Position numbers and translations under genes: made by a program
Shown here: in pieces, positions 1,250 to 54,300 of the stretch
Position numbering within the stretch: the first letter of the stretch is position 1
Layout of the letters: each line of letters starts with the position of its first letter
Source: Heterotrichella gracilis
Taxonomy: Eukaryota; Sar; Xanthophyceae; Tribonematales; Xanthonemataceae
Assembly: GCA_032358255.1 (NCBI GenBank)
Contig: JAULBX010012763.1
Coordinates: 37,308 to 101,307, forward strand
Direction of reading: 5' to 3'
DNA: 64,000 nucleotides
The notes under the pieces: generated by a model
Told to the model about the DNA's origin: nothing
Database searches by the model: none
What the model saw: only the letters and a program-made list of their open reading frames with translations

Positions 1250-4200
1250 AGGCGACAGCAGACGCGCAGCAAGCCGCGCTCACGCTCGAGAAAACCATCC
1301 TCACTGCCCTCCTGGGGTGCCTCACGGCTGTGCTGTTGGGGACACTGGTGCTGCCCAGGCTACCGCGGCGACAACCTAGGTATGTGTAGCAAACCCTAAG
1401 CCACAAACCCTGAACCCTAAACCCTACACAAGGGCGCTGGTGCTGCCCAGGCTACCGCGGCGACAACCTAGGTACGTGCAGCAAACCCTGAGCCACAAAC
1501 CCTGAACCTTAAACCCTACACAAGGGCGCTGGTGCTGCCCAGGCTACCGCGGCGACAACCAAGGTATCCGCTGCAAACTGGATAATAAAATTTACAACGG
1601 AACCGTACACTGGGATTCCTGGATTGCTGCTATGTATGGTACCAGCCACACTCGAACGCAGCCATATCCTTGTGAGCCGCGGCACAGCTCATCCTTACCT
1701 ACCCACAAAAATATACATGCACGCACAGGCAGCCAGTGGCGGGCACACACCCGCAACTCATTAGACATGATTGCACTTGTAAGGGCGCCCACAAGCACAC
1801 ACATCCTTGCGCCTGCCTACCCGGCAAAGTGCACTACAGCAGCCAGGCCTGGGCCCCACCAGCGCATGGCACTGGCTCCTGCCAATCAAACAGGCCGTGA
1901 CCCCAGCGAGCCACCAATTCCCAGGAACAGCGTCGCCTGGCGCACTGCCCGGGTTCCAAGGGGTGGGGTGGGGTGGGGTGGGGTGGGGCCACACCGCCAT
2001 TTGAGGGTGGGTAATTTTGCGCAGGCGCCACTCTCACCCAGGGCTAAGTCCCCCAGGGATGCTGCTGGTGGGTGGGCAGCTGGGCCGAGCCTCCCCACCG
2101 CAAGCCCCCGGACCATCACCCACCCACCCCCTACCCACCCACCTCCCAGGCTCTCACACCCACCCCCACCTCCCACGAACCCACTCCCCGCAGGCGCGCC
2201 TCCTCGCGCTTTTCCAACGACGGCGCCACCACCGCGCGCTCCCGCCGCAGCATCGAGGTGCTGCGGACGCTGCAGACGCGGCGGTCCGCTGACGCGACGC
2301 GCGCGGCTGCGGCGGCGGCCGATGCGGGGCTGGGGAGCAGGCGGACGGCGTCTGAGCACCTACTGCTGCCCTCGGAGGCGCTGAGGCTAAGTGCGTCTTG
2401 GGGGGTTGGGGTTCCCCTTGCGTATGAGGGTTAAGCAGACCGTCAGACCATCTACGGGGGTGCACACCCGGGTAGTTGTTGGTTTGCTGGACCGCACTGC
2501 GCCGCGCCTCCCACTCTGCCCCCTCCCCCTCTGGGTGCATGGCTGCCAGCATCACCCACCACCCCCTTGTTGCTGTCCCACTATTAACGTGTGCCTCTTT
2601 CCTTCCCCCAGGGCATGGTCCGCTGACTGGCGTGGAGGTTGGGGAGCTGCTGGGGACTGGGTCCTACGGGCGGGTGTACAGAGGTGCGCCTTAGGGTATG
2701 GGGTTGAGGGGTTAGGGTTCTCATAGGGGCAAGCTGCTAGGGACTGGGTCCTATGAGCGGGCGTACGCAGGTGCTCGCCACACATACACCCTTAGGGTTT
2801 TGGTAGGTGAACAGCTGCCCAGGCCGCAGAGGTGCGCCACACACCCGTAAGGCCAGTAAGCACTTGCGGGCGGCTGCACAGCGGTAGGCATACCTAGACG
2901 AGGCTTGCAATGAGTTTGTAGGTGGGCAGCGCCACAACCATTAGGGTTTGGGTGGGTGGCCAGCGGCGCACCCTTTAGGGTATTGGTAGGTGGGCAACGG
3001 CGTGGTACGCACCCTGAGCTTGATGGGGTGGATGGGGGGGAATGTAGGCAGGGGAGCATGGGCACCATTTCAATGGATGCGGCTGGTTCGTGGATGCTGC
3101 GGGTTAGGGTTTAGGGTGCGGCTGGTCCCCCTGGGGCCATGCTGGGCTCACGACCACCAAGCCGAGGAAAAGCCCTGATTTTCTAGGGAGGGTTTTAAAG
3201 TGGGTAACTTTTTTGGGGGGTGGGGGGTGACTGACTGAAAACTTGTGTGTGTGCTTGTGCCTAAAAATAGTTTATGGGTGTACGGTAGTACATTGCATCA
3301 CTGTGGACTCCGCCTTGCCTCCACACCTGCAGCTTTTCCCACCCTCTCCCCCCACCCCGCCCACCCCACACCCCCGCAGCGCGCTGGAACGGTGCTGTTG
3401 TTGCTGTGAAGATCATCGACCACATGGTGTACAAGACCAAGGGGGCGCTGCTGGAGAGGGAGAAGACGCTCAACACAACGCTCAGCCACCCTAACGTGGT
3501 CACCACCTTCAAGGTAATACCTCAAACCCTAACCCTAAGCCCTAACCCTAAGTCTTAAACCCTAAGTGCGCAACACAACGCTCAGCCACCCTAACTTGGT
3601 CACCACCTTCAAGGTAAACCCTAAACCCTAGAACAACGCTCAGCCACCCCATTGTGGTCACCACGTTCGAAGTAAATCCTAAACTTTAAACCCTAAGTGT
3701 TCCAGCAGGCACACTAGGCCTCAGAATAGGCAAAATCGACCTTCGAAACAGGCTAAACAGGCCTCACATTGGCAAATTCGGGCTGTCCTCTTTCTCACTC
3801 TTGCCCACCCCCCTGTAGGTGTACACCTTCAAGTCTCCCGTGCCCAGTGCTGACTCGAGAGACAGCCGGTCGTTGGATGAGGGGAGGGGGGAGCCGGAGG
3901 GTGCGTGCTTTTTGGGGGCCTGGTGGTGTGGGTGATGTGTGGGTGGGGGTGGGGGTGGGGTAGTGGTCACTCGAGGAACAGCCGGTGGTTGCATGGTGCA
4001 AGGGGAAGGAGCAGGAGGGATGTGTGGTGGAGGGTGGTCGGTGGGGAAAGGGGCTGAGGAGGCTGCATGTGGGTCAGGGGGGTGTATGGTACAGTGCTGC
4101 GGTGGACGATGGGGGCAAGGGTTTTAGGGTGCAGGGTGCAGCAAGGGTGCCACAGGTGGTTTACTTCCACCACAATGAGATTGCAAAAAAAGCCGGTGTC

Positions 4201-7103
4201 TGGCTCAAAGCCTTTCTTTGATTGTAGTTGTGGGGGTGTAGGGGGTGGGTTGCGGCTGGGATGGGGATTGAATCGGGCAAGGGGGGCGGGGGAGGAGGTG
4301 GGAGGCACTTTGATGGACCCCAGGAGTTGCTGTGTGAGACGCATCGGATCATGCGGGAGGATGGGTACAGGCTTTGGGGGGCTGCGGTGTTGCTTCTGGT
4401 CCAGACCCTAAACCTCAAGAGCGTGTGTGCCTTCATTCGAGACCTCACAACCTAAACCAAAGCCAATGCACCCCACACAAGTGGTGCGTGTCCCCACCCA
4501 CCCACTCAACCCCCACCCCTGCAGGTGGTCGGCCGCAGCCCGAGGAGACTTGGATTGTGATGGAGTATTGCGACAGGGGGTCGCTACTAGACGCAATCAA
4601 CGTGGGCAGGTTCCAGCAGCGCAGCCCGAACCCCAAGGCCCCCGACCTGGTGCGTGCGGGCAAAACCCTAACAAGAATACCCTACACTAAAGTTTAGGGA
4701 GGTCGTTTGCATCCATGGCATGGGCATTGCCCAAGGTTTAATTGCCAGCCGGTTCAAAACGTAGATGCTCTTCTGGAAAATCCTGCACCATGGCCATTAC
4801 GCCCGTGCCCAACCCTACTCAAACCACATGCCTGACCCTACACAATGCCTGTGTACACACACCCTGCGCCCAAGCACACTAGACAGGCTTGACTGGCTAA
4901 TGCACAGGCCCTTTAGAACCCTCAAACCCATCGCCAAACTCTACGCCAACCCTACCATCCTGCGCTCGCTGCGTGACATCGCATGACCTACTGCCCTTTG
5001 AGGGAACGTTCTACCCAGGCGCTACACCTCAACCCCAACCCTAAACGCTAAGGTTTGCCCTCGCAGGAGGCCATCCTTCGCTCGCTGCTCGACATCGCTC
5101 AGGGCATGACGTACCTGCACTCGGAGGGGATCATACACTCGGACCTCAAGTGCCCAAACGTGCTGCTGCGCTCAACGCTGCAAAACCCTCGAGGTACGGT
5201 TTGGGGCGCCGTGTTTTTGAACGCTTTCTGTACCTGTTGCGGATGGTGAGGGGGGCTGTGCAACTGAAAATAACAGCCAGGTAGCGCTTCACATGCATTA
5301 GTATGGGAGCTAACTACTGCTTCCCATGTACCCTTTAGGGTTTTCCTGCAAGCTGGCCGACTTTGGCCTTGCACGTGTGCTTGAGCCCGAGCAGACCACC
5401 ATCCACACGCGCACCTTTGGCACCATGAGCCACCAGCCGCCGGAGATGCTGACCAAGAACAAGCTGAGCAAGGCGGTGGACGTGTACGCCTTTGGCATAC
5501 TCAGTACGTGGCTGGAAAACCCTAAACCCTAGACACATTATTTCGGATTGAGTTGAGCGAGACACCTAAACCCTAGAGTCTGAACCCTTATCGAGCAAAC
5601 TGCTGAGAAGGACAATGGGCGTGTGTGCTTTTTGACATCTTGAGTGCGCGGCTTGAAATCATAAACCCTAGACACCCAACCATAAGCCGTGAACAAGCCA
5701 AGCAGATCTAAATTGCATACACCTTGTCACTAATGACAAGGTGTATAACAACCTCAGCCAGGGCCAATCATACATGGGAATCAAGGAGAACCTGCGTTAG
5801 GGTGTCGAGCTTTGTGTAGGGTTTTGCACGTTCTCCCTCATCCCCCTCTCCCTCTGCACCCCACACGCAGCCTTCTGACCCCCCAAACCCCCTCTCCTTC
5901 ACAGTGTGGGAGGTGTACACTGGTGTACAGCAACCACAGCCAGGGCCTGTCCAGACAGGGAACACCCTCAACCCTGCGATACCAAGACCCTAAACCCTAA
6001 CCCCCTCCCCCCGTGCAGTGTGGGAGGTGTACACTGGCGACAAGGTGTACAGCAACCTCAGTCAGGGCCAGCTGTATATGGGCGTCACGCAGCAAAACCT
6101 GCGGCCCCCAATCCCCACCGGCTGTCCCCAGTTCTATGTGGAGATGATGACTGCGTGCTGGGATAGCGACCCTACCAGGCGGTGAGTGGTCGGCTGGGAT
6201 CATGTGGGAATGGGGTGCGATCATGTGGATTAATGGCTGCTTGCTGGGATAGCAACACTACCAGGCGGTGAGTGACCGTGTGGGATCGTGTGGGATCATG
6301 TGTGGTGCGAACCTGATAAAAGCCAGTTGGGGACCAAGTGAGTTGAGTGGGGTTGTTTGGAACTGGCTGAAGGGATTTACATTCTGGCTGAAGGGATTTA
6401 CGCTGGTGGCCGGGCAAGGTGATGCCCAGTAATGCGTACTGTGCACCGTAACCATCGATCTACGCATCAACCCCAGAGATCAGCTGCATGCCATCCAAGT
6501 AACCCACCCCTCTCCACCCCCCAGGCCCCCCACCGGCACCATCCTCCAGCAGCTGCGGCGCGCACTGAGCCAGATGCGGCAGGCTGCGGGGGGGGCCGCA
6601 CGCGCCGCCCGCCAGCGCTCCTCCTCCATGCCCCCCACCCCCTCCGCCATCGGCAGCGGCAGGCGGCTGGTTGCGGCTGAGCAGCCCACAAACCCCGAGT
6701 CACAATGTGAGTTGCGCTAGGGTCTGGGGGTAGGGTTCAGACAACAGGCAGCAGCCCATGCCCTCCTGGCTTCACCCAGTCAGGGTACTTTTGAAGGCAC
6801 GTACGCTGTCACCCAAACCTTAGTAGCAACTATAGATCACCAATTTCCTCCCCTGCATGGGCTGATATTCCTCCTCCCCTGTACCCGCTCATGCCTCTCC
6901 CACTCCTGCCCAGCACCTACCACCGCTGATGCCCCACCCCTCCTTTGCATGCAGTCGAGGACTCAATGGGACCCGGGTCGGATTTGCCGGGGACGCATGA
7001 GCTGCATTCGGTCCCCGGGTCGGATGTGGCGGGGATGCCCAGGCTGGGCTCGGTCCCCGAACCAGATGTGGTGGACGGCCATGAGTGGCGCTCGGGGCAA
7101 TGA
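1250..7103 (+). CDS. Membrane-anchored TKL (Raf/MAPKKK-like) protein kinase, 5' end uncertain
   Basis: Exons: 1250-1379, 2194-2390, 2612-2683, 3380-3513, 3819-3900, 4525-4649, 5067-5193, 5339-5503, 6019-6181, 6525-6706, 6955-7103; intron phases agree throughout. Exon 1 encodes a transmembrane helix (TILTALLGCLTAVLLGTLVL) followed by an Arg-rich stop-transfer. An Arg/Ala-rich juxtamembrane region leads into the kinase domain: G-loop GTGSYGRVYRG, ATP-binding Lys in VAVKII, hinge IVMEYCDRGSLL, catalytic loop HSDLKCPN, DFG in ADFGLAR, PPE in place of APE, and WEVYTG in subdomain IX. The C-tail is Ser/Gly-rich. PPE and the VYAFGI(L)xWE(V)YTG pattern are typical of the expanded green-algal TKL family. 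HRD is HSD, so this is a non-RD kinase, but the catalytic Asp, Lys and DFG are present. It probably signals from a membrane by Ser/Thr phosphorylation; the ligand and substrate are unknown. Introns hold many exon-edge copies. Confidence 0.88.
1345..1566 (+). repeat. 92-bp tandem array copying the TM-exon tail and its donor
   Basis: The last ~35 nt of the transmembrane exon plus its 5' splice site recur at 1437 and 1529, a 92-bp period. The copies are separated by degenerate CCCTAAA units. The second copy keeps a GTACGT donor and the third has a GTATCC donor, so alternative donors are possible. Confidence 0.9.
3471..3672 (+). repeat. Exon-tail copies in kinase intron (3514-3818)
   Basis: The end of the kinase exon (3471-3513, encoding NTTLSHPNVVTTFK) is repeated at 3572-3614 with one visible change, and at 3631-3672 more diverged. 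Each copy ends in a GTAA-type donor and is joined by CCCTAA-like sequence. Confidence 0.9.
5717..5960 (+). repeat. Two decayed copies of the kinase subdomain IX-X exon
   Basis: Positions 5735-5799 translate to a degraded version of the real exon at 6019-6181 (DKVYNNLSQGQSYMG...NLR then stop, against DKVYSNLSQGQLYMG...NLR). A second partial copy at 5905-5945 keeps an intact CAG acceptor before TGTGGGAGGTGTACACTGG. The first copy also makes one arm of a perfect 13-bp inverted repeat, 5717-5729 with 5734-5746 around a 4-nt loop. Confidence 0.85.
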
Positions 7104-9458
7104 TCCATGCCCCCACCCACCTGGTGCTCCCGCCCAGCTACCAGCCAGCTACCACAGCGCAGCCCAGCGTATTTCAGTTGCCTGCAGTGCGCGCCAGCCC
7201 TTTCCGCCGCCCCGAAGCGCAGCTCAACCGTAAACCCTACACCCAGGCTGCAGCGGGCGGGCCCAGCAAGGCACGCACCCCATGCAGTGGGGCGCACATG
7301 CGACGCCGTTGAACCCCGGCTGTCGAGCAGCAGGCGCCTGCGCATGCGCTGGCCCATGGCTGGGTGGGCAGCACTGGTGCGGTTTGGCGTCAGGAGGCGC
7401 TGTGGACCCTACGGCAGGGTTCTGCTTTGGGAGGCGCTGTGGACCCCACGGCAGGGTTCTGCTTTGGGAGGCGCTGTGGACCCCACGCTAGGGTCCTTTC
7501 ATGCACGCGAGGTTTTCAGCCGAGTGCGTCCGCCATGTGGCCATTCGAGCCTAGCCTCGCACGCCCTGCCGGTCCATATTGTGTGTTTTTTGGGGTGGCT
7601 TGTTTTTGGCCGCTAGAATTTGCGGGGGGGTTATTTAGCCCCAAGTATTTTGGGTTGTTTCTGATTGGTCCCCTGGCAGCAGTGGGGCCACACAAGGATA
7701 GGTTCTCAGCACAGCCCCTCAGCAATGCAGTTGGCCCTCGCGGCGCTACGTGCCCTTTTGCCAGGGCATATAGGTACACGACATTGGTTTGAACTTACAT
7801 TGTTTTGGCAAAGCCTGGCCATCAGAGAATTGACCATGTGTGGGCTCTCTGCCCGATTTTCAACCGCCAGTTTTCCACCACCAATTCTTTGCCCACTGGA
7901 CCTTGGGCTTTTCACCCCCTGCTCTCTTGCATATGAATAGGGGGGTGTAATGCACAACTTTTACCCCCCCTGTTATCCAACCACCAGGTGTGCGCCGACT
8001 GCACCCCTTGGTACGAGGGTTTTCAGGGGCTTGCTATTCCTGATCCAGAGCTGTTTCTTTGGGGGTTTATTAGCCTGCCATCTGTAGACAGGAGATTGTC
8101 GTGGTTGACCCTATCGATACCCGGCTGCTCAAGTAATTTTGCCAGGCCCCGCATATGCACAGGGTTTGGGGTTGCCTGAAGCAGTAGTCCCCGCGTGCGC
8201 GCAGCGTAGCTGAGTTTCTCGCGTACACTTGTAGTACGTTTTTTCAAGTAATAGAGTGTTGGCCAGCTGCTGTTACAGTGTGGGTGGACCAAGCAATTCG
8301 TGGCATTGTAGGTATGGGGGAGGGCCGGGGCCTCGTGCTTTCATGCCTTGCTTTGCAGTAATGATTCATCCTTTGCAAAAACTGCAATCCGGTGCCCTTG
8401 TTAGGTTTGTGTAGCATGGGCTTTGCCAATGGTTAGGGTTTACAACCCTAATAGGGAACAGCTAGCTGAGTACGGCGCTGCAACCCTAGGGTTAGGGTTG
8501 TTTACAACTCCCAATTTCCCAACGCATCAAGCCGTTTAACGTTTTGAGTAGCATAATAGCAGTGGGCAGTTGGGACGCGCAGTTTGAACGCCGGTTATAA
8601 CAGGTGTGACATCAGGCTGGACCAGGTTTCAACTTGCCCTGCAGCAGCTCAAAACCGCATCTTCCTTTTTTTCGTTTTTTCTCCCACCTGGTGTTGGTAC
8701 CGTACGTTGACATTGTTACACTGTTTGCCGGTAGACACCTCACAACATCCCTGCAGTGCGTTACTGTGCACAAAAGGCAACTGACAAATATCTACTGGCA
8801 GTGTAGGCGTGTGCGTGACGCTTGCTACCATAATGACACTGTTGCTGCTGTAAAAGCGATAACTTCATGTGACCAAGCTGGGTTGAAACAACACAGAGGT
8901 ATTTTCTAAGGACCTTGACCTCCACTGTTTGCCCCCCTAGGCCAGCTGTGGCCGCGCCATTTCCAAAGTAGATAGGCATCGCCTCCTCAGGCTGCGGGAG
9001 GTATGTACCGGGTCCAAAGGAAGGGACGGACTGCGTGACAGCCCAAAAGAAACCCGCAGGGGTGCTGCATCTGCTTCACCAGGCACACATATGCAGAATA
9101 AACAGGGGAAGCACTCGCCTCAGGCACATTCTGCTGTTTCTTGGGAAATAGTTGGCGACATGCTCAGCTAGTTGCTGAATATTGCCCTCCAGACCTGGTT
9201 ACGAGAAGTGTCCATGTAACCAGTCTGTATCAGTCACTTTCATTCTTCCTCGGGGCCCTTGCTACTAGGCTTTTAGGGTGGTTAGGGTTATATTAGGGGT
9301 GTGGGCCCTTGTGGCTCTGTAACAACCCCCCTTGCCCAAGGACTTGGGTCACAGTAAAATACGGGTCCAGCGCACTTTCGCAGAGCACCAGTGGCAGTGG
9401 AAGATAGTGGTACACAAATCGCGAGGATTGTGCTATAGACACCACATCACGCTTCCAA
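7104..9458. other. Kinase 3' region and intergenic stretch before the SET gene
   Basis: No gene recognised. The stretch contains a 37-bp tandem repeat (7393-7500), a TGTAA motif at 7946-7950 that could end the kinase transcript, and telomere-like units near 8430-8505. Several open frames of 60-170 codons exist but none shows family motifs or consistent splicing. Confidence 0.5.
7393..7500 (+). repeat. 37-bp tandem repeat, about 3 copies
   Basis: A unit beginning GGAGGCGCTGTGGACCC repeats at 7393, 7430 and 7467 with one or two changes. It lies in the presumed 3' UTR or intergenic region after the kinase stop. Confidence 0.9.
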
Positions 9459-12400
9459 ATGAGTGTCGTCATGTGGTCACACCGGTTTGCCACGGCACAC
9501 AAACAACATCCAGCCATGCTTGTAACCAGTAGCACACCGACCATGCTACCCGCCAGCTTGGGTGCTGGCAGCAGTGTGCGTATCTGCCCACAGCCGTTCA
9601 CCTCCCCAGCCACTACACACGTCCGCAACCAAAAGGCTCGACTGCGAGCAAATCCCGTCAGTGCTGCAGCCCAATCAGCGTCGTACGAGGTGGCGAAAGA
9701 CACGCAGACCTCGAACTACGCGGCATGGGCCGCCAGCAAGGGTATCACCTCTCCCAAGCTAGCGCAGGCGGCCTTTGCGGGGCTTCGGGGCATGGTGGCG
9801 GTGGAGGTGGGTGGGGTACAGCCAGGCTCATGCGGATGTTGCCTGTCACCGGGTTCCGTACGCCACCTCACAGCCTCAAATCGGCGGATGTGCATGTTAG
9901 TTCGCGTCTTGTCACCTTGTAGTGGGGCGTTGCGTGGTGTATGCATATTACATTATGCATGCATATCCAACGGTGGCGATGCATGCATGCATCTGTTGTG
10001 TTTCACCTAGGCACAGATACTACCGTATGTCGGCCTGTTGAGGACGTTAGGATGGGACAGCAAAGCAAACCAGCACACACAACCCCCCTTAAACCCCTAT
10101 CCTAACGATGACCCTAATAAAACCCTACTTTGGGGCAATATAACCATCACCATGGTGTGCCATAGGCTGGATCAGTTGATTGCAGTGCCTGGACAGAGCT
10201 GGTTAATGCAAGGTATATAGGACTGCCTACAACGTAGCTCTATCGCTGGAGGTTTGTGGCTGACTACCTGTGTGGCATGCGTCTCACACCATACACATCG
10301 TATGAAAAACCCTAACCCTGCACAGTAAGAAGCCCTACTGTAGGAAATAGAATCAACACCCCTTGCCACGTGTTTCAGGATATTCCAGCTGCCGAGGCGT
10401 TCGTCACCCTTCCCCGGGACGCAGCCCTGGTGGTCCTCCCCAAGCAAAAATGCCCCCTGGGGGACCAAATAGACCCCAAATTCTGGGGCAGCACCCCCTG
10501 GTTCGCCAAGCTGGCCATCTTTTTATTGGCCGAGCGGGCCAAGGGGAGCGTATCAAATTACTGGGGATACATCCAGAATCTGCCCAAGGAGCATTATGAG
10601 ATGCCCTTCCACTGGAGTGAGGAGGAGCTGGCGGAGCTGCAATACCCTTACATCCTGCAGGAGGTGGGGGGAAACCCTAGCATAGGGTCTTAGGGTTTGG
10701 GATTTAGGTTTAGCAACGCATCAGGATGACCATGTCGGGGCTGTAGGATCCCATACGCTTTGCAGGAGGGGAGGGAAAACCCTGGCGCAGGGTTTTTAAG
10801 TCCCGTTGGTTGCCCCCTCGTTTCGAATCGCGCCTGGCCTTTTAGCTAATCTCTCTAACGACCACCCTGCCACTTTAGCTGCATTGCTGGCATGGGTGTA
10901 ACTAACCACAGGGAACTCACATGTACTGTTTTGGCACCCCCCTGCTGAGGCGGTGTTTCCTCCCCTGCCCTCCCGACAGGTAGCGCAACAGAAGGTGGCG
11001 TGGAGCAAGTTCCACAGCGACCTCCAGGCCAACTCCAAGGGTCTAGGGCTTTCGTACGAGGACGTGGTGTGGGCGCTGGAGAATGTGCGCAGTAGGGCAT
11101 TCAGCGGACCCTATGCAGGTGGGGAGGGATTAAATTTGGGGACTAGGGTTTTTGCGTGAGAATGTGGTGTCAATAACTGGTCCAGGCCTTCGCTTGAATA
11201 CAAATTGCATGGCCCCGGCAGGGTTATTACACAAAGGTATCCTGTGCACCTCAAATGAACCCTATGTGAACCCCATGCGAATCCCCATTTGATCCAGGTG
11301 GCAGCCAGGGGGATCGACTAGCGGCTAGGGTTGGGAGGGTTTGGGAGGGTTTCTCTTGCGCAGCACCATACGAAACCCTATGTGAAACCCTATGTGAGCC
11401 CCTTGTAAACCCATGTGATCCAGGTGGCAGCCTGCGGGAGCGCCTCAAGGTGGCGGGGCTGGTGGGGCTGGTGGGGGGGGCATACGTGGCAACCTCGGGC
11501 ATACCGCTGGAACAGGTGGGGGGGGAAGGGGGGAGGGTGGTGGTCGGCTGGTTGGATGTGGATGCACAGGTGTAGGATGTAGGGTTTTGGAAGCACACAG
11601 TGAAGGGTTTTGGGTGCACAGTGTGTAGGGTTTTGGGTGCACCGGGTGCAGGGTTTTGGAGGCACGGGTGTAGGATGTATCTACTTCTCATATAAGAGCC
11701 GGCAGTAATGCGTCTTTGGGTTCGTGCAGGCATTGAACGGCGCCATTGCGGCGGTTCTGTTCAACATCATGTATGACGTGCTGCTGTCTCAGAAGTTAAA
11801 GTGGTACGCGCTGCTGCCCGTGGTGGACTCCTGCAACCACAGCAGCAGGGCGCAGGTGCGGGAGGGCGGAAACCCTAAACCCTACTAAGAACCCTAATGA
11901 CAGTTCTGATTAAATTTCACTTGCTTCCCGTGGTGGACTCATGCAACTACTCTAGCAGGGCGCAGGTGTGGGAGGGCGCAGATCCTGAACCCTACTCCAA
12001 ACCCTAATGACAGTTCTCATGGAAACCGTAATTGCTGCCAGCGTGGTTTTGTGCAACTACAGCAGCAAAGGGCAGGTGCGGTAGCCCTGAACCCTGCTAA
12101 GAACCCTAATAATACCTGATGACGTCCCCCAATGGAAATCCCGATGGAAAGTACGGTGGGCTCGGGCAACAAAAGCAGCAGGGCCCAGGTGGGTGGGTAG
12201 TGGGGGGAGAGGGCAGACCCTTGAAGCCATGATGTGAATCCTTACCCGTATCATAAGGTCCGTATGGGACCCTGCGTGTGTACAAACAGCCTCCATCCGC
12301 CAGGGGGGGGGAAGGGGGATAACCCGCTCCCGCACGGCTTTGCCCAAAGCTCGCCCCTCCCATATGAGGAGCTGCTTAACCCCTCCCCCACCGTGCACAG

Positions 12401-31000: not shown

Positions 31001-31594
31001 AGGACGAAGCAGTCGCCACCGATGCCTGCAGGGGTGTGGGGTGCAGGGTTTAGAGTTTAGGGTTTAGGATCCAGGACTTCAGACCTCGGCTAAGTGCTCT
31101 TGAGCGTGCAGGGGTTAGGGTTTAGGGACTAGGCAGCGTAGGGTTTGTTGGCAAGAATTCGCCCCTTCGGTATCTCACCACTCACAGGCAGCTTTATTGA
31201 ACGGTGTTTCACATACTCTTGACATCACAACCCCTACCAGTTGAGCATGGCTCGGTCACGTTGAGCTCCGCTGCCATGCGCCCAAGAGCTAGGGTTTAGG
31301 GTATAGGAAGCGAGCACCTAAAGTGTTTGCTTGGGAAGCAATACTCCCCTCAGCATCTCTACACTTACAGGCAGACCCAACTAACAGGCGTCACATCTCC
31401 TTACCAGTTGAGCATGGCTCAGTCACGTTGAGCGCTGCTGCCATGGCCACAGCGGCGTCAGCGGCGGTGCCCCCCATCTGCAGCAGCCGCATGCCCGCCT
31501 CGCTGGCCAGCGGCTGCGTGGAAGCCACCATCCCCCGGGTGCCCAGCACGCTGGACCGCCGGGAGATGAAGTCTGTGGCTGCCTTGCACAACAT
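28038..31594 (-). CDS. Gamma-glutamyltransferase, YwrD-like (N-terminal nucleophile hydrolase)
   Basis: Seven exons: 31594-31405, 31025-30796, 30446-30224, 29973-29795, 29436-29209, 28965-28609, 28349-28038; phases agree, 572 residues. N-terminal half: [36 protein letters not shown] and GIGGD, diagnostic of the family. Small subunit: [19 protein letters not shown] with the nucleophile at about Thr375, then [20 protein letters not shown] and [11 protein letters not shown]. The proenzyme self-cleaves before this Thr and then hydrolyses or transfers the gamma-glutamyl group of glutathione or similar compounds. The HDTV and SNYMGFG patterns resemble bacterial YwrD-type proteins more than plant GGT1-4. 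No signal peptide or membrane anchor is visible, so cytosol is likely unless a 5' exon is missing. It is divergent from the PHT4-like gene. Confidence 0.93.
30713..31450 (-). repeat. Exon-edge copies in GGT intron regions
   Basis: The end of exon 1 (31405-31450, the NVTEPCSTG donor side) is copied at about 31227-31278. The end of exon 2 (30796-30828) is copied at about 30713-30745. CCCTAAA/TTTAGGG tracts accompany both, including 31037-31065. Confidence 0.85.
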
Positions 31595-40300: not shown

Positions 40301-43300
40301 CCCACCCACCTGCTGTTGCCAGGCTCTCATCGCGCATGTTTGCCAGGTCAGCCAGCAGCTTGCCCAGCAGGTGCGAGCACACCATTGAGCCTATGCGCAG
40401 CTTGGAGGGGGGGGAGATGCCGTACTCGTTGGGGATGGCAACGTCAGCAAGCTGCTTGGCGACCTGCGGGGTAGGGTTTAGGGTTAAGGGTTTGGGGTTT
40501 AGGGCTGTTTGTACTCGATGGGGATGGCCACGTTGGCTTGCTCCAGTTTGAGCTCAGGGTGGCACATGGGCGAACCCACCACCACCACCACCACCACCAC
40601 ACCATACCAACCACTCCATACAGCTTCTCAGCCCAGCCTCAGTAGCCTCAATCCCCACCCTCTACCCTCCACCACTCCATCCCCCACTTCCTCTCCACAC
40701 ACGTACACACACACCACCACCTCCCCACCCCACCCACCCCACCCACCCTGTACAGTTTCTCCAGGCTGAGCCCCAGGTGCCTGTTGTGGATGGCATCATA
40801 CTTGACGGCATCGTATATGTCCGGCACCTTGCTGATGTCAAACTGCTTGCGCTTGGTGTTGAAGAAGGCCTTGAGCAGCTTGCGCCACCTGGCAAAGGGG
40901 CACTCAAGGTTATTATTATTAATATTATTATTGGCAGCACAGCACGGGAGGGCACTCGATGTGTGTGTGTGTGTGTGTGTGTGTGATCCAGGTTAATCTT
41001 TTTATTTTTCATGGGAAAATGGATGTTTAAATTTAAAATTTTGTAGCCCTTCATACTTTGGGCTACGAGGAGGGTGTGGCACGCTCACCATCAGTTCCCA
41101 AACCCAGTCCCCTCCCAACACCTATGCCTCCACCCACCACCGCCACGCACCCCCCCCACCACCCACCACCCCCCACCTGTCGAACATGAGCAGCAGCCTC
41201 TCCCCCCCACACGGCTTCCCCTCCTCCTCCTGCCAGTCCTTGGGGTCCTGGGTCATCACTGAGTAGCCGCTAGTCACCCCGTTTACACCCCCCTCCTCCT
41301 CAAGGCACTTCATGCGCAGCTGCTCAACGAGGACCTGCGGGGTGGTGGGGTGGTGGGGGAGGTGAGCAATGTAAAGGGACAGTGTAAGCTTTTTGTGTGT
41401 GGGGTGTGGTGGTGTGGTGGGTGTATGTGTGTGTGGTGGGTGGAGGGTGTAATTGTGGGTGGAGGTCGGGTCATGACTGTGAAGCAACCCTGATCTTCTT
41501 CTAGGTGCTTCATGCGCAGCTGCTCAACAAGGACCTGGGGGGTGGTGGGGAGCTGTTTAAACAAAAGGGGCAGTGCATGCTTGTGCGTGAGGTGGTGGTG
41601 GTTAATAGTGGGTGGGCGGGTATTTGTGTGTGGAGGTTGGGTCATGCTTGGCACCCCCCTCCTCCTCTAGGCACTTCATGGACAGCTGCTCAACAAGGAC
41701 CTGAGGGATGGCGGTGGGGAGCTGCTCAGCAAAAGGGGCAGTGTATGCTTGTGCGTGTGGGGGTGGTGGTTAGTGGGTGGGTGGGTATTTGTGTGTGGAG
41801 GTTGGGTCATGCTTGGCATCCCCCTCCTCCTCTAGGCACTTCATGGACAGCTGCTCAACAAGGACCTGAGGGGTGGCGGTGGGGAGCTGCTCAGCAAAAA
41901 GGGGCAGTGTATGCTTGTGTGTGTGGGGGGTGGGGCTTTGTGCGCATGGATGTGTGTGTGTGGTGTTGGTGGGTGCGGGTACGTTTTGCCCGTGGATGTG
42001 AGTGTGCATGTAGGGGCGTGCGCGATTGTGTGGCCAATCGCATGCCAACATTCCTTGCCACACAGCCTATCCACATCCCCACCTTCATGAGATCCACCAG
42101 CTGCTGGAGCCACTACCACCATAAAACCCTACAAACCCTGAACCCTCAAAACCCTAAGCCCTAACACCCACCTTCATGAGCTCCACCAGCTGCTGCAGCA
42201 GCTGCAGGGGGTTGTCGGGCATGGGGTGGATGTGGGGACGCTCGTGGGTGCCTGGGCCAATCCCCCCACCACTTGCCGATGAGCGGTTGGATGCGAATGC
42301 AGAGTTGGAGGACGCCTCGGGGGAGAGGGGGGTGGGGGGGGTGGCCAGGGAGCTGCCCTGGCGGTGGAGGGAGCCCGTGGGGGAAGGGAGGCCTGGGGCG
42401 GGGGCAGGAGAGAGCCGACTTAGCTGGAAAACCTTCAAGTCTTCTTTTGTACAAAACCAAATGGGCGAGGTATGTAGATTGTCATTTGCAAAATTATTGC
42501 ACTATCTAGATCCGTTCTGGACTGGAATGGAGTGCAAATTAATACTGCGCTTGTTTTCGTTTTCAGCGTAAGACCGAGGGTCCCTGGGATTGAAGGTGCG
42601 GTTGACTTAAATGTGATAACTCAACTGGATGATTTTAAATAGGTTGAGAGGACCTCGCCCCTCCCCTCCCCAACCACCATGCACCGCCCCCCCCACCCGC
42701 ACCCACCTTCCTCCGCATTCCTCCCGGCCTCCATTTTGGGCGAGGGCGGCGGCGACAGCAGCGGGATGATGGCGGCCACAGTGGGCGCGGCAGCCATCGA
42801 CTTGTCCTGCTGCGGGTCGTAGGTCATCTGCGCATACAGCTCCCCTTTGGCCTGCCGGATGTCCTCGCTGGCGCCCTTGCCAAACGCGTCAAGCATGCCG
42901 GCGTCCTTCTTCACCAGACTGCAGAGGACGATTTGTTTCGGGTTAAGGGAGGAGCGCCTCAAGATTAAGGTGTTTTGAGTGATCATTTTGGCAAATTGAA
43001 GTGGGTTATTTTTCCATTTTTTTGGGCCTGCCGAATGTCTTGCCAAATGCGTCACGTATGCCTTCTTCACCAGACTGAGGGGTGAAGGGGTTTTTGTCAA
43101 TGTTTGAGGAGGAGTGTGTTGAGATTTGGAGTCAGGATGCAGGTCTATGTTATGGTTGAGGAGTCCACCATGCGAATGATTTTTTTCCACAACGCCATTC
43201 TATCTCAATAATAAGTGCAGTCGAAGCCCAGCATGCCTACTTCTTTGCAAGTCCAAACAGAATGGGCAACAGCTTCCTCCCCCACCGTTCCCCCCTCTCG

Positions 43301-46300
43301 ATCCAGCATCCGCACAACCCACCGCACCTGACCAGTATGGGCGTCAGCCCCGACCCCTCCAGATCCAGCAGGCCCTGCGTGAACGCCGCAGCGCTGGTCT
43401 GCACCCGCCCCTCGTCGCTGGAGTAGATCTTGAGGTCATGGCGGTAGGTGGAGTGCAGGCGGAGCAACCCCCCACCCGCAGGCCCGTAGCGCGGGTACAT
43501 CACCATGCGGAAGATCTGCCCGAGGTGGGTGGCCTGCGCAGAAGGGGTGCGGGGTCCGGCGTGTGCAAGGGGGTTGGCGGTGAATGGGTAAAAAGGGTGT
43601 ATAGAAGACCATGTTTCAAAGGTAAATATTGCAAGGTCATGGCGGTAGGTGGAGTGCAGGCGGAGCAGCCCCCCTCCCGCTGGCCGTAGCACGGGTACAT
43701 GACCACGCGGAAGATCGTGGCCTGCGTGTGAGGGGTGTGGTTATTGGGTTAAAAAGAATTACATAACTTTTGTTAATGTTAAGACTTTCCAAATTTTCAC
43801 ATCTTCAATTGCAGTGAAAAATAAATTCTAACATTCGATTATGGCGGGCTTTAGCAGGCGTGCGAGGGTAGGCATGTGCATCAGCAGGCAAAGAAGGAGG
43901 GAAGGAAGCTGCCTTCGTAGAAGGCAGTGGAACGCGCGAGCCTTGTTGTACCCCGTGCATTATGCAGCACTGTGCAAATTGCTAGTGCGGGTACATCACT
44001 ACCCACCTGCTGCTTGCGTGAGCACCCCCTGTGCTTCACAATGAGCAGCGCCTCATCCTAGGGCCCCACGCCCCCCCTGTGACCACCACTCCCACCACCC
44101 TCTGCCCATCCCACCCACCCCACCCACCCACCTGCTGCTCGCCCGCATGCGTGAGCACCCCCCCGATCCACAATCGTGACCCCTCAACCACCACCTCCCA
44201 CCCACCCACCCATCCCCACCCACCCACCTGCTGCCTGCCCGCATGCGTGAGCACCCCCCCGTGCTTCACAATGAGCAGCGCCTCAACCACCTTGGGGGCC
44301 TCATCAGAGCCCTCGGGTGGCGTTGACCACCTGAGTGGCTTGATCTGCACCTTGCGGTTAATGCCGGCAAAGGCACCGCCCTGCTCAAGCACAGTCTGCG
44401 GGAGGGGGGAGGGTGTGGAGGTGATTGGTGGTGGTGGGTGTATACGGTGAGTGGTTGTCTGTGAGTAGCGTGTGTGTGGGTATGATGGTGGGCGAGGGGC
44501 GAGGTGGACGCGCCAGTGCTTCAGTGATACATTGTGAGGCATAATAGTCAGACGCAGTGACCCGACCCCCCGCCTCTCCTGGCAACTCTACAGGCAACCC
44601 TCAACCCTTCTCCCCACCACCTCACCCACCTGATTCCATCACCCACACCCCTCATACCCCCCCTTTCCTCACCTTGACAATCCTCAGCTTCTCCCTGATT
44701 TCATCATAGTCAGATGCAGTGACCCGCCCCCCCACCTCCTCGGGCCGCTCCATGCCCCTGAGCAGGTCCCGCGTGATGTCCAGCAGCTCCTGCAGCTCCT
44801 GGGGGGACTTGAGCTTGGCCTGCTTGCCCTTGGCGTCCTTGTGCTTCTCAAAAAGGTTGATGAACGCGCCCTGTGAGGTGGTTAGGGTTTGAAATGAGGT
44901 TTGTGCAAGGCCTGCATGCCCTAGGCGTCCTTGTGCTTCTCAAACAGGGTGATGAACGCGCCCTGGGGAGGGTTAGGGGTAGGAATTAGGGTCTAGGGTC
45001 TGGTGTTTGGGGTTGAGCTTGGCTTGTTTACCCCTTGGCGTTCGTGTGCTTCTTACACAGGGTGATGAACGCATCCCGGGTTGGGGTTAAAAGTTAGGGG
45101 TTAGGGTCTAGGGTCTGGTGTCTGGGGTTGAGCTCAGCTGCCTGCCCTTGCATCCTCGTGGGCTTACAGTGCGGTCCCCCGTGCCGCACTGGCCTGAACC
45201 CTAGCCCTGAACCCTAACTGCGCCCCCACCTGCGTGACCTTCATCTTCACCTTCTGCTCATGTGTGCTGTTACCAACCTTCAACACCCTAAATTGAGCCC
45301 TAAAAACCCTACTTGCGTCCCCACCTCAACCCTAGCCCTGAACCCTAATTGCGCCCCCACCTGCGTGACCTTCATCTTCATCTTCTGCTTGGGGGTGCGG
45401 TCCCCGTGGCGCACCACCGCCAGCACGCACCGCAGCTCCTCCCAGTTGGACCTGCAAGGGGTGGGGGCACACAGAGGGTCAGCAGGAACCGCTGGCTTGG
45501 AAAGCATTTTTGGGCCAGGGGGCTGGTGCATTCCAGCACCACATAAGCTGGCTCTGTAGTGGGGGATGACAAGATTGCTGGCCAATGCACGCCAACCCAG
45601 AAATCCTCTGTTCGAAGGTGGCAGACAACGAAATGCACTGCAAAATTGCAAACACCCCTTGCTCACCCCCATGGCTCAACCCCCCAGCCCCCACCACCTC
45701 CCCACCCGCCTCAATCGAGCCAGGTCTACACCCTCCTCCACCGTCAACCCACCAGCAACATTTAAACGAGGCCCCAAGCCTCCGCGCCTGCCTCCCCTCC
45801 CCGCCCCTACTCCCCCCCACCTCCGCCCCACACCCATACGCACCGTTCGTCGCCCAGGTCATCTGAGCTCATTGTGGGTGCGATCATGCGCACATCCTCG
45901 ATCGAGTTTGACAGCATGCGCTTGGAGGATGACCCGCCCATGTCGAAGGATGAGTCCCGGTGGACGCCCTCGGGGGTGCTGCCCAGCTGGCCCTGGCAGC
46001 GGGGGTTGCCAATTGCAATTGCGATCACAAGTGCAGATTTCTTTTATAGTTTTTATTATGCATTTACAGTTGCAATTTAAGTTAACATGAATGCAGATAA
46101 ACCTTGTCCTCTGGGGTGTCTGCCTAGCATGGCTTGCGTGTGAGAGGCTCAGCTACAACGCAGGATGGTGCCAGCATGTGACGTCTTGAACACCACAACA
46201 CGCACATGCCAATGCTTACACCACAAGGGGCCAAAGGCAACTTGCAAACCTATTCATTCAAACTACCAAACACCAATGAAACCCAGCTATTGCAGAATGG

Positions 46301-49300
46301 GAGCAGCTGCCTACCTGTGAGGGCCGTGGCGCGTGCAGCAGCCTGTGTGGTGCCAGCGCAGACAGGATGATGTTGCGAAGGATGCCGGCTGCATCGTCGT
46401 AGTACTGCAAACGGGGGGGGGGTCGGAGGGGGGGGGGGGGCGTGCAGGCGGCGAATTGCACACGGCACCTGCTTAGGGTTCCCCAGAGGGTTCAAGGGAA
46501 GAAAATACAGAGGCTGACGTGGCGAGCAACAAAAATGCAAAAAAAAACAATGAACATTGCCACTCATCTGCATGCGGCATGCTGATGGCAGTGCACTTGC
46601 AATACGATCAACCATGACCATGCATTGCTCCCCTAGGACCACCCACATGCCCCAGCTGCATTTAATCCTACACCCTGCACCCCCACCTTGTACGAATACT
46701 TGACAAAGCTCCACCCATCGACGTCACACACACGTGGACTTGCCGTGCCGAGCGCAGCCGGCAGATATGCAAGCCCTAAACCCAAACCATGCCACCCTGC
46801 ACCCCCACCTTGTGCGAGTTTTTGACAAAGCTCCAGCCGTTGACGTCGCACACGTAGGACTTGCCGTGGTCGGAGCGCAGCAGGTCAAAGCCGCACACCT
46901 TCTGGCCAAAGGCAAGGCACACCATGCGCGCAATCTCCTTCTCCTGCAACGCGATAAGAAAGGACATTATTCACATATAGATTGAAAAAAATACCTTACA
47001 GGACACGGATGCCAAAGGCACACCCTGCTCGCAACCTCCTCCTGCGATGTCATAGAGACAGCAAATGACATTTGATTGTTTCCGTTTAGATTGCTTAAAT
47101 GTTTACATTTTGAACTCCATTCAATTCATTGTTTTCTTGCTTGCAGAACTCATTACTTCAACAACAAAATGGCTTTGCGGCGCACCGATGGCGTGAGCAG
47201 CACCGGGAATCGCACTTCCTTGCCGTCGGCAGTGCGGTTGACCTTGCCATCCACCACGGGGGACTTGCGCGCCTCTGCGTGTGCATAGCGTGGCCCCACC
47301 GTGTACACCTTGACGTCGGTGCCGCCAGTGGTCAGGAACTCCTCGTAGATGAAGGAGCCGTTGCGTCTGGAAGATTAATGGATAATTAGAATGCCCTATA
47401 AATTTCGATTTTGTAATTAGTGATGCTTGAGTACTGAGGGTACGGGCCCCACCTGACGTTTCCTGGGTGTGCTGAGTCATAGTCCCCTGATTTGTCCTTG
47501 ATCTTCCTGAACAGCTTCTTCACCCCCCCGCCCATGGAGTGCGGGTAGTATATGTACACGTTGTGGTCCTCGCCATCAGAGGGCTTCTCAACAAAGGGCT
47601 TCAGGATCTTCACACCTGGGAGGATGATACCAAAATGTGAAGATTACAATATGCGGGATTGCGCAGCCTGCAAATCTGCCTGACGAGATGGGTCCAGTTG
47701 GGTCAATTTTCATTCCTCGTATTGGTAATTTGGACATGCATTTAGAAAAATTGTAAGGTCCTCGCCATCCGAGGGCTTCTCCACAAAGGGGTCGAGGATC
47801 TTCACACCTGGGGGGAAAGGACGGAAGACAATCTATACATGATGTGGGGATGCGCAGCCTGCAGGCATGCCTGACGAGATGGGCCACATTTTATTCCGTG
47901 GTACTGTTTTGTAAACATGTATTTTACACATGAATTTTGGGAATGGTGTGGTCCTCGCCATCTGAGCGCTTGTCAACAGAGGGTTTCAGAATCTTCAAAC
48001 CTGGGAGCATAACAGCAAAAGGTCACGATATAGGGCAATGACCACCAGCCACCAGGATGCAAACTGCCCCACGCGACCCATGGCTCTGCCTTGCACGTTG
48101 TCGCAGGCATACACATGGGGATGCACATGGGATGCACATGGGCATGCAGGGAAATGCCTGATGTTGTAGTCACAGTTAGTTTTTCTGAGCCGCGACGGGT
48201 ACATCAATATTCTATTTCTATACCTATAGTCACACTCAGTTACTATACATCAGTATTCTATTTCTATTTCTATTTCTATAATCACACTTAGTTACTATAC
48301 ATGCATTCCGGCAGCTAGCTGTTGACGTGCACGTGGGTACAGTCAGCTCATGCTGAGACCAATGAAAGGGAGAAAAAAGGGTCTTACGTGATCATTTATT
48401 ACAAAGTGAGCACAATTACCGTTCAGCGCCACATAGTCTTCTGTTTCCTCAAACCCCTCTGGGTCCTTGCCGCCATCCCGGTCCACGATGATGTGGTGCG
48501 GCAGCGGGATGCGGCTCTCCTGTATGTTACAATGATGACTTGAATAATGGAGTACCATGCTCGAGTGTAACCCAGCAAAAATCACATATAATCCGCAATG
48601 CCAGGAAGTGGAGCGCCCTCAATGTAAATGCGATGCGGGGCACCTCAATGCGATGCGGGGCACAGGCTGGTCCGGTACACGCTCCTAAACCCTAAACCCT
48701 AATCAGGCTCACCTGCAGGGTGCGGTACGCACTCCTAAACCCTAGGCCCAAACCCTAATCAGCCTCACCTGCAGGGTGCGGTACACGCTCCTAAACCCTA
48801 CACCCTAAGCCCTACACCCTAACCCTACTCAGCCTCACCGTGAGGGTCCTGTACACGCTCCGCCTGTCCAGAAGCACGTCTTGCAGCAGCAAGTCGTTGA
48901 TCAGGTAGGGTTTGCGCAGGACGGTGTACTGCTGCGCCTGCAAACAAGACAATGCCAAGGTTCAGGCGCCGCCAGGAAGCCCTAAACCCTGCCAAAACCT
49001 AGGCCCATTCAGTGGCACCTCCTCCAATATCTGTGGGCGCATGGCCATGCCCGATAGAGTGCCTGATGCTAAGGACCATCTTTCAATGGGTGGCGTTCCT
49101 AGTGCAATGCCAAGAGGCGTACAGAAAAAGTAGGAGTGAATTCAGCTATTTGCCATTCAGACGCCAACACCCATCTAGTGCAGTGTGTCTAGTGTGGCCA
49201 GAGGGCATGCCAAACCCTGCATACCTTCTTCAGCGGGTATCCCTCAGAGTGCCATGCCAGCAGGCATTCGCACAGCGGCCACTCCTCTATCGGCTTGTCA

Positions 49301-51301: not shown

Positions 51302-54300
51302 ATGGCAGCCCAGCCCAACCAGAAGCCGCGCCTGCGCTGGACCCCCGACCTGCATGAGAGGTTCGTGGAGGCCATGGAGCAGCTGGGAGGCATACAGAAG
51401 GCCACGCCCAAGAGCATACTGGACGAGATGGAGGTCCAGGTAGGTGCACTCGCAGTGCCCGGAAACACCATTCCACACCGCGCAGCCAAACCCTAAAACC
51501 TAAACCCAATTTTACCACAAACTGTTCAGACATAATTTAGGTGTCATGACTGACCCAATTCAATCATTGCCTACACCCTATCCCACTATTACCACAAAAT
51601 TGTTCAGCTATGGTTTACATTTCGTGAGTCAACCAAACCAATCATCCCTTCCGCACAGGGCCTCACCCTACTCCACGTGAAGAGCCATCTCCAGAAGCTG
51701 CGAGCAGCCGCCGCCATCCGCCTGGGCCGCCGCGAGTCCAACCGCAGCCGCACCCACCCCTCGGGCGCCAGCCGCTCCTCATCCCACACCAGCGGCAGCC
51801 GCCTCCGGCGCCCACAGCGGCCACCCGCCACCCCCCACCACCTGCCACCTGCACCGCCACACGCCACGCCAGGTATGGTAGGGGAGGCGATGGATGGGCG
51901 GGTGTGCATGGATACCAGTTGCTGTGTGGTAGCTGGTACTGACATGCATTGCGCAACGGGATTGCCATGGGGCGTTAGGGCATGACGCGGTGCATACCTG
52001 AAAATGCTCCTTTTACTGAGTTAGTGCGCCTGTTTTAGCCTGCGCATGTATATACTCAAGTAGTGCTTTTTCCATTTGTGTTCCATACAGTATCATGCTG
52101 TACACAATATATACCGTACACATGAAAGCAGGTAGAGGAAGTGTTAGAAATTTTCATCGATGAAAAATTGATTAATTTCTGTCCCCCACCAGGTTTCAGC
52201 CTCAGCTCCCAGCCAGCACCTGCAGGGCTCATGCCGGTGCTAGGCGAAACCCCCAGCCTGCGCTCCGATGAGTCAGCAGCGGTTGCCTTCCATGTCACCA
52301 CCCCCCACGTGGTGGTGGACGGGCTGCAAGATGCGCTATGCGATGATAGCCTGCTGGACATGTACTACACCATGCAGGTGGGTGGGAAAGGGTTTAGGGT
52401 TTTAAACCTGAATATTAGGGTTAGGGTTTAGGGAGCAATTAGGTGATGACAGCCTGCTGGACATGTACTACATCATGCAGGTGGGGGGGAAAGGGTTTAG
52501 GGTTTAGGGTTTAGGGAGAATAAGGCTTGAGGATTTAGGGTTCAGGGAGAAAAGAGAAAATGATGACCAGCAGTGATTGAGGTAACACATAAAGCATACT
52601 ACGCACAGCATGTTGCAACATGCAATTAGCAATTAGCAATGGGAAGGATCACTCGAGCACCTCGGTGACACCCCGCACTCCTTCCACTGCAGGAGGATGG
52701 TAACCCACCCCACCGACAGGCGCCGCCTGAGCAGCCCGCCACCTCCGACCAATCCGACTGCTTCGATCTGGGGATGGGCCCCATCCCCCCCTGGGATGGA
52801 GAGGACGATCTGGAGGATATGCAAGTGGGCCAGGCGGGGGTCCAGGCGGGTGCCGGGGATCTGCAAACCGCGCTGGCTGGGGATGCGCTGTGCAGGCGGA
52901 GCATGCTTGAGGCGCTGCACATGCAGCTGGCCATGCAGAGGCAGCTGCAGGAGCAGCTGGAGGTGGGTGGTGGTGGTGGGTGGGTGGGCTGTGGCTGTGG
53001 AAGGGGATTTCGGGGGAGGGCGGTGCTTGTGGGGTGTTGCACTGGCTGGTGGTGTGGGGTTACGGTTTCCCTTGCGAGTTTGCTGTTGCTAGAGGTGGAG
53101 GTGAGGCGGCGGTGGAAAACCTAGAAGGCCCCAGGCCCAGCAGCAGCACCGTATCCCACGCCCTAATGTAGGGTTTCCCTCATATCCCAGACCCTAACTT
53201 AGTGTTTTCCCCCACCACAGGCCCAGCAGCAGCTCCAGAGACAGCTTGAGGCCAACACCCTAACCCAGACCCTAACTTGTGGGTTTCCCTCCACATTCCA
53301 GACCCTAACCTAGGGTTTTCTCTCCACAGGCCCAGCAGCAGCTCCAGAGCCAGCTTGAGGCCAATGCGCGCACCATTGCCGAGCTGCTGAGGGGGGACGG
53401 GGGGGTGGCGGGCAACCAGGTGCTCATCACAGGGGTGGGTGGCCACGGAGGGGACATCATGCTGGTCAACGCACACTCGCTCAACCAGGTGGGTACCCGT
53501 CGGTGGTGTGGAGGGTTCAGGGGCCTGTGGAGGGCCCAATGGCGTGCCCTGCACTGTAGGGGTGATGCCGTGCGCTGGGTTTGGGGTGTAGGGTTCAGGT
53601 CGAGTGCCGGCACTAGTCCTGTGCTCGTTGTATTGAACCAGGTGGGTAGCTTGCCCAAGTGCCATTATTTTCAGAAGCCTGTCTGGATTTTGTATGGCAT
53701 TTTCCACGTGAATTGCACATTTATAACCGCATGTGGTTAATTCAGCACACGCAACCATCCTGCACCACTGTCACACCCACCCACAATGCCCCGGCATCCG
53801 CAGGCCTTCATCTCCACCACCTCCACCACCACCGCTGGGGTGGGCGCCACCTCAGCACAGCCCCCCGCCTTCCACCCCCCACCCGTGCACATGGCTGCGG
53901 GTGGCAACCAGTGGGGAGTCAGCCACATGCCTGCGGAGGCCCTGGGGGCACAATCCGGGGATGGAAGAATGGCTGCTGGGGATGAGAAACTTGCTCCTGC
54001 ATCCCAGGGAGGTGCTGTGCGGCGCGGAGAAGGGGGCATGGGCCAAGGGGGGAGAGTGAGTCAGCAGCACGCGGGGGCATCACCGGCTTCTGGCATCCTG
54101 CAGGCCCTGGCGACAGGTGTGGTTGAGGGTTTAGAGTCTTAGGGTAGAGGGTTTTAGCATCCCGGAGGTCCTGGCAAGAGGTGTGGTTTAGGGTTTAGTG
54201 TTTAGGCGTCATGCCGGCCCTGGCAACATGCGAGGTGTGAGGCAGGGTGTGGGGCGCTGGTGGGGATTGGGGGTTGGTGGGGCTGGGATTGAGAGGGCAG

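Follow-up and report, generated by a model that had tools for sequence, protein, structure and literature searches.

Why do the edges of exons reappear inside the introns that adjoin them, often beside telomere-type repeats? The question was raised by a stretch of 64,000 nucleotides of the Heterotrichella gracilis genome (hereafter the window; bases 37308-101307 of contig 129; genome assembly 68.5 Mb, 903 contigs). A sequence-only reading of the window had described such copies and suggested a process of local duplication over exon-intron borders, with telomere-type DNA placed at the joints. The exon-edge copies were confirmed as real and genome-wide. The suggested process was supported, including its spread through a sample of the genome, and the interpretation as a whole was partly supported.

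The sample consisted of the window and 20 other 10-kb stretches (L009-L028), 264 kb in all. Genes were predicted with a self-training gene finder written for this study, using the window and the 20 other loci as training set (Viterbi training). It returned 403 introns with CAG/GTGAG-like donors and TGCAG/G-like acceptors. Window proteins matched the Pfam families kinase, Arm/amine oxidase, GGT (gamma-glutamyltranspeptidase), PPIP5K and histidine phosphatase (VIP1), MYB-CC and MoCF. The SET-type protein had no Pfam match; the transporter protein was left out of this search.

Copies of exon edges in introns

Each exon edge was aligned to its own intron by the Smith-Waterman method, and scores of at least 36 were counted as copies. 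Direct copies were found in 67 of 403 introns (40/403 donor edges, 33/403 acceptor edges). As controls, 806 edges each were aligned to shuffled sequence (no match at donors or acceptors), to another intron (2 and 0 matches, respectively) and to the reverse complement (0 and 0). Copies are direct and local, with no reverse-complement copy among 806 edges.

Events were counted by self-BLAST (161 pairs, 135 past filters). Overlapping pairs were merged, and pairs were dropped if more than 400 nt apart, shorter than 25 nt, below 38 bits or at least 40% telomeric. At a minimum of 70% identity, the sample contained 86 exon-edge events, 37 of them independent exon-edge/intron duplications in the window, spanning positions 1345 to 53364. 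A few weaker window copies were added by Smith-Waterman alignment, the last in the MYB-CC intron 54117-54459. Spacing was 63-132 nt in 66 of 135 BLAST pairs; short spacings were under-counted, because BLAST spacings start at 63 nt yet arrays of 44-nt units exist.

The many events differ in identity (75-100%), and the copied exon part measures 15-142 nt. For analysis of the joints, slightly different limits were used (introns of at least 60 nt, exons of at least 20 nt, 150-nt edges), giving 69 matches instead of 73. The exon-side limit of the copy lay 20-70 nt from the junction in 58/69 cases. The intron-side end was widely variable and fell 3-10 nt past the junction in 14/38 donor-side units. 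Introns with a copy had a median length of 343 nt, those without one 229.5 nt. The anatomy is that of a direct local duplication with inserted joint sequence, as in tandem duplication by generic break repair. An order like growth rings, with the nearest copy always the youngest, was inconsistent with the identities (92 then 82% near window position 3470, but 74 then 83% near 12380). In L010, a 93-nt tandem array (5363-5679) lies within an intron immediately upstream of the acceptor and contains no exon sequence.

Telomere repeats in the joints and decay of the copies

All 33 perfect 56-nt (8-unit) TTTAGGG matches fell into arrays at or near contig ends. Of the 11 contigs concerned, six have the array in their first 200 bases and five have it no more than 5 bases from the opposite end. 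Because all 8-unit matches are terminal, TTTAGGG was taken as the telomere repeat of this genome. Three-unit matches to TTTAGGG occurred at 834 overlapping places (end arrays included), those to TTTTAGGG at 9 and the TTAGGG 21-mer at 2. The inserted sequence is thus the species' own telomere repeat, as in interstitial telomere insertions elsewhere, and other telomere motifs are rare.

Introns contained 1.32 TTTAGGG or CCCTAAA units per kb, as against 0.20 per kb between genes and 0.02 per kb in exons. A scrambled heptamer occurred on average 7.45 times over all introns, or about 0.14 per kb for two heptamers. Perfect runs of at least 10 telomere bases were present in 76/403 introns, 6/253 intergenic pieces and 2/399 exons. 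A telomere 10-mer was the commonest 10-mer in the window and L009-L028 (52 times), followed by ATGCATGCAT (50 times). Intronic units clustered within approximately 40 nt of splice sites; near donors they occur in both orientations, near acceptors mostly as CCCTAAA. Judged by eye, the counts from 322 introns showed no strong coupling between 5' TTTAGGG and 3' CCCTAAA of the same intron.

Across the sample, copies and telomere units were linked: a telomere heptamer occurred in 51 of 67 introns with a copy versus 117 of 336 without (Fisher p = 6e-10). Telomere units had been described as usual at the joints. They are common but not universal, with a heptamer in the span of 25/37 window events and 55/86 events overall, versus 22% of matched event-free edge spans. 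The heptamer was located preferentially in the joint. At the donor side, 25/38 joints contained it versus 8/38 stretches of equal length beyond the copy (17 cases with the heptamer in the joint only, none with it only beyond; p = 2e-5). The figures at the acceptor side were 13/31 versus 6/31 (joint only 8, beyond only 1; p = 0.04), and a coarser count from BLAST pairs gave 39/61 versus 18/61. Telomere repeats therefore stand at the rearranged junction, though not in every event. Slippage between AGGG-like donor sequences and TTTAGGG, also put forward by the sequence-only reading, found no support: GGG was present in the first 9 intron bases in 14/38 introns with a donor-side copy versus 123/365 without.

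Exon and copy disagreed at 10.3% of first, 8.7% of second and 16.9% of third codon positions (p = 2e-8), the pattern expected of a constrained exon, in which most changes are silent, and an unconstrained copy that changes throughout. Copies differ from their exons at all codon positions, and 19/59 carry a frameshift or stop. This divergence with a codon-position pattern makes assembly error unlikely. The copies look like decaying debris. Most copied GT and AG dinucleotides are kept, as had been claimed (4 mismatches in 64 aligned donor bases, 2 in 45 acceptor bases).

The retained dinucleotides raise the question whether copies and tracts are functional and kept by selection, as decoy or alternative splice sites, branch points or splicing enhancers. 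Near acceptors, CCCTAAA outnumbers TTTAGGG, and there it resembles a branch-point context. The deficit of splice-dinucleotide mismatches (6/109 versus 187/1964 at codon positions 1 and 2) was not significant (p = 0.18). A branch point has no need of multi-unit arrays on both strands near donors, and for VIP1 and GGT the copied stretches are missing from the best solved homologue. Together with the frameshifts and stops, these features render selection for function highly unlikely, and the changes at all codon positions lend no support to active decoy sites, a use first envisaged for the copies.

Some copies were taken as exons by the gene finder, adding 14 residues to VIP1 and 17 and 10 residues to GGT that the best solved homologues lack. 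In the SET-type gene (12382-12901), one exon region occurs in three near-copies, and the reading frame of the gene model stays open through each of them, so some of these predicted exon copies could enter the mRNA and lengthen the protein.

Anchoring to exon borders and a candidate mechanism

At a minimum of 80% identity, the sample contained 70 exon-edge, 6 intron-only, 1 same-exon and 0 intergenic events; at a minimum of 88%, these numbers were 39, 4, 1 and 0. Aged events of the same sizes were simulated (150 per class); the detection rate was 0.71 for exon edges, against 0.64 for introns and 0.61 for intergenic DNA. By our own arithmetic, about 50 positions per junction provide roughly 40 kb of edge sequence, whereas intron interiors add up to about 83 kb and intergenic DNA to about 75 kb. 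If duplication were random, edge events should therefore be outnumbered by those in introns and between genes.

It might still be supposed that tandem duplications arise randomly everywhere but are noticed or tolerated only at exon edges. A duplication across a junction leaves the outer splice site intact and can therefore do no harm, and tandem duplications have been reported for rice break repair (PMC7407515, in the portion of the review available). Intron-interior and intergenic events were detectable nearly as well in the simulation, yet numbered 6 and 0 against 70. In this sample the duplications thus do not occur in non-coding DNA generally, and this explanation is very unlikely. Selection alone cannot account for the confinement to borders, since such an event ought to be tolerable inside introns and between genes as well; breakage must therefore have some cause linked to the border. 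Ends of coding sequences without a splice site had copies at 1/41 starts and 2/49 stops, versus 73/806 intron edges.

Exon duplication beside an intron is the textbook picture of intron birth. The copies could accordingly be scars of introns born by tandem duplication of an AGGT-containing exon, or of mobile Introners. Similarity between intron start and next exon start was 5.74/20 versus 5.71/20 in unrelated pairs, and that between intron end and previous exon end 6.55/20 versus 6.44/20 (n = 335). When 56 joints were compared with telomere heptamers masked, one match linked two introns (19 nt, AT-rich) and one of 34 nt led to another locus, so that a mobile family in the joints had no support. 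We regard either origin as very improbable. Border anchoring and telomere joints together argue against random tandem duplication, a mobile family, introns born by tandem duplication and assembly error. Separately, dispersed matches of approximately 50-120 nt were noticed between introns and other places on both strands (window 22134-22279; L028 2823-2952; L024 4386-4449 and 8047-8168; L014 3760-3854; L009 9670-9757).

We give an even chance to an explanation in which exon-intron borders are recurrent sites of break and repair, where telomerase or telomeric DNA supplies the filler and end joining seals the break. A splice site would be flanked by two closely spaced breaks or nicks, one in the exon and the other in the nearby intron, and the stretch between them would be retained by both ends. 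Repeats of the species' own telomeres would often be added as filler, via telomerase or by capture of telomeric DNA, and the gap would be closed by end joining. Telomerase repair would be the most economical source of the filler. The product would read exon edge with splice site, filler, and exon edge with splice site again, in a longer intron. Such a duplication would be tolerated because the outer splice site is still functional; the inner copy would decay afterwards, and selection would keep the cases with a working outer site. RNA-DNA hybrids formed by excised intron RNA, the ends of which would coincide with the junctions, are one candidate cause of the breaks.

Several observations weigh against recurrent border breaks with telomere filler. 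Exon positions and anchoring counts depend on the gene models of this study, which were built from sequence only. No telomere heptamer was found in the span of 31/86 events, and 5 of 9 intron-only duplications do carry one. The control at coding-sequence ends is weak (3/90 versus 73/806; same direction, p = 0.07). Copy identity was only weakly tied to how perfect the telomere repeat in the joint is (Spearman 0.19, p = 0.14; one-sided rank test p = 0.034), and no clear strand order was seen in the joints by eye. A held-out set was assembled from eight 3-kb loci picked by a telomere 21-mer outside the Viterbi training (8 distinct sites, two loci overlapping). Seven of the 8 sites lay in predicted introns, only 3 of them at most 40 nt from an exon (9, 15 and 28 nt; the others 81, 103, 126 and 155 nt). 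The eighth was predicted to be intergenic and lay 32 nt from an exon. A duplication was present at 2/8 held-out sites.

Telomere tracts also occur near splice sites of introns without a visible copy, so the tract may come first. Tracts would then act as fragile sites, and slippage or template switching between them would duplicate the exon edge. Several arrays carry a tract in every unit, and interstitial telomere tracts have been described as fragile (PMC6410037, in the part of the paper available). The tract is, however, mostly confined to the joint and does not flank the copy on both sides (only in the joint versus only beyond the copy: 17 versus 0 at donors, 8 versus 1 at acceptors), 31/86 event spans lack a heptamer, and the location of tracts at exon edges is left unexplained. 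We consider this order of events possible, if rather unlikely. The main uncertainty is the order itself: tracts at copy-free edges could either precede duplications or mark copies decayed beyond recognition.

A more far-reaching form of the break-repair explanation would have splicing mark the DNA, with border break hotspots tied to splicing (e.g. by excised-intron RNA hybrids) and telomerase-assisted repair as a main engine of intron growth. Introns would then grow by layers of exon-edge copy and telomere tract. This extension is put forward tentatively, and its chances are clearly lower than those of border breakage as such.

The distribution of features in the window is given in the table. 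The PAO, MogA and RRM genes had been described as spared. For copies this stood as far as examined, with no exon-edge event at 13812-21813 or after 54459; it did not for telomere motifs, which occur in 3 of 5 predicted MogA introns. In the RRM region no copy was found after 54459, but no gene was predicted after 58862, so RRM was unchecked exon by exon.

Table. Exon-edge duplications and associated repeats in the window, by gene (window positions).
Gene	Feature	Span	Strand	Remark
Kinase	92-nt unit of exon end, donor and telomere-type tract, 2.5 copies	1345..1578	+	
Kinase	Donor-edge copy, TTAGGG units in joint	2645..2774	+	
Kinase	Exon end and donor, 3 copies, CCCTAAA-type joint	3468..3697	+	
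Kinase	Donor-edge copy, span without telomere heptamer	3846..4019	+	
Kinase	Acceptor-edge copy, telomere unit in joint	4955..5098	+	
Kinase	Donor-edge copy and telomere unit	5463..5675	+	
Kinase	Acceptor-edge copy and telomere unit	5882..6069	+	
Kinase	Donor-edge copy, no telomere heptamer	6136..6295	+	
Kinase	37-nt tandem array over last predicted intron, no telomere heptamer	7393..7497	+	
SET-type	Acceptor-edge copy and telomere units	11258..11445	+	
SET-type	110-nt unit of exon end, donor and CCCTAAA, ~2.5 copies	11812..12110	+	
SET-type	Exon and flanks, 3 copies	12382..12901	+	Read as repeated exons by gene model
SET-type	Exon-edge duplication and telomere unit	13508..13812	+	
ARM	Exon-edge duplication, telomere units in joint	21813..22128	-	
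ARM	Donor-edge copy, span without telomere heptamer	23233..23377	-	
ARM	Acceptor-edge copy, no telomere heptamer	23502..23749	-	
ARM	Donor-edge copy and telomere units	24374..24623	-	
GGT	Exon-edge duplication and telomere unit	30705..30826	-	10 extra residues in model, not in best solved homologue
GGT	Exon-edge duplication and telomere unit	31225..31445	-	17 extra residues in model, not in best solved homologue
Transporter	56-nt tandem copies at exon end, joint without telomere heptamer	34158..34299	+	
Transporter	44-nt unit of exon end, donor and TTTAGGG array, 4-5 copies	35471..35683	+	Outside the 37 merged events
VIP1 (C-terminal part)	Acceptor-edge copy and telomere units	37897..38076	-	
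VIP1	Donor-edge copy and telomere units	38275..38401	-	
VIP1	Donor-edge copy, TTTAGGG units in joint	38708..38834	-	
VIP1	Weak acceptor-edge copy (75%), no telomere heptamer	38938..39106	-	Smith-Waterman only; span by hand
VIP1	115-nt unit of CCCTAAA tract, acceptor and exon start, 3 copies, 84-97% identical	39587..39917	-	
VIP1	Exon end and donor duplicated, no telomere heptamer	40102..40369	-	
VIP1	Short acceptor-edge copy, CCCTAAA-type joint	40422..40534	-	Smith-Waterman only; span by hand
Inside VIP1	165-200-nt unit, 4 copies, no telomere heptamer	41294..41963	-	Doubtful plus-strand gene predicted here
VIP1	Donor-edge copy, telomere unit in joint	42078..42199	-	
VIP1	Acceptor-edge copy, no telomere heptamer	42876..43077	-	
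VIP1	Acceptor-side copy of exon sequence, no telomere heptamer	43423..43716	-	
VIP1	Exon-edge duplication, no telomere heptamer	44079..44291	-	
VIP1	Donor-side exon-sequence copy without splice site, no telomere heptamer	44540..44738	-	
VIP1	Acceptor-edge copies and telomere unit	44809..45134	-	
VIP1	Exon end, donor and TTAGGG tract duplicated, 95% identical	45193..45389	-	
VIP1	Donor-edge copy, TTTAGGG joint	46671..46884	-	
VIP1	3 exon-edge copies	47562..48029	-	One is 14 residues in model, not in best solved homologue
VIP1	Donor-edge copies and telomere tracts	48684..48872	-	
MYB-CC	Exon end, donor and TTTAGGG, 95% copy	52342..52505	+	
MYB-CC	Acceptor-edge copy and telomere units	53144..53364	+	
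MYB-CC	Donor-edge copy (80%), telomere unit in joint	54085..54189	+	Smith-Waterman only; span by hand

Comparison with known systems

Intron growth is usually ascribed to transposons or neutral drift. In this sample, most detectable recent duplications (39/44 at a minimum of 88% identity) adjoin exon edges, and many carry the telomere repeat. A link between splicing, DNA breakage and telomerase thereby becomes directly testable in a small genome. For annotators, exon copies with intact splice sites can pass for exons. For a break-repair duplication, the anchoring at exon borders is the surprising part. No prior description was found among the titles and abstract openings listed by searches of the open-licence literature, and the accessible portions of a Coccomyxa genome paper and an Auxenochlorella paper do not mention the phenomenon.

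Intron gain by tandem duplication of AGGT sites leaves duplicated exon sequence around the splice site. Unlike in that process, the expected similarity signature of intron ends was looked for here and was absent. With Introners, as outlined in the accessible text of PMC9860276, the present case shares the genome-wide gain of intronic sequence; unlike Introners, it has no dispersed family in the joints, and each copy derives from its own exon.

In primates and rodents, interstitial telomeric sequences were inserted at double-strand breaks, and flank duplications were a minority (6/130 rodent and 4/25 primate loci), according to the available sections of Nergadze et al. 2007 (PMC2246262). Those insertions and the events described here have in common short internal arrays built of the species' own telomere repeat, in some cases with flank duplication; unlike there, most detected duplications here adjoin exon borders and copy 15-142 nt of exon. 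Rice tandem duplications of 10-1000 bp have been attributed to break repair (Vaughn and Bennetzen 2014, as summarized in excerpts of the review PMC7407515). The H. gracilis events resemble them in being local, direct and within 10-1000 bp, whereas that summary mentions neither a tie to exon borders nor telomeric filler. The pattern fits, in parts, both telomere insertion at breaks and tandem duplication at breaks, and the union of the two at exon borders would explain the anatomy of the copies.

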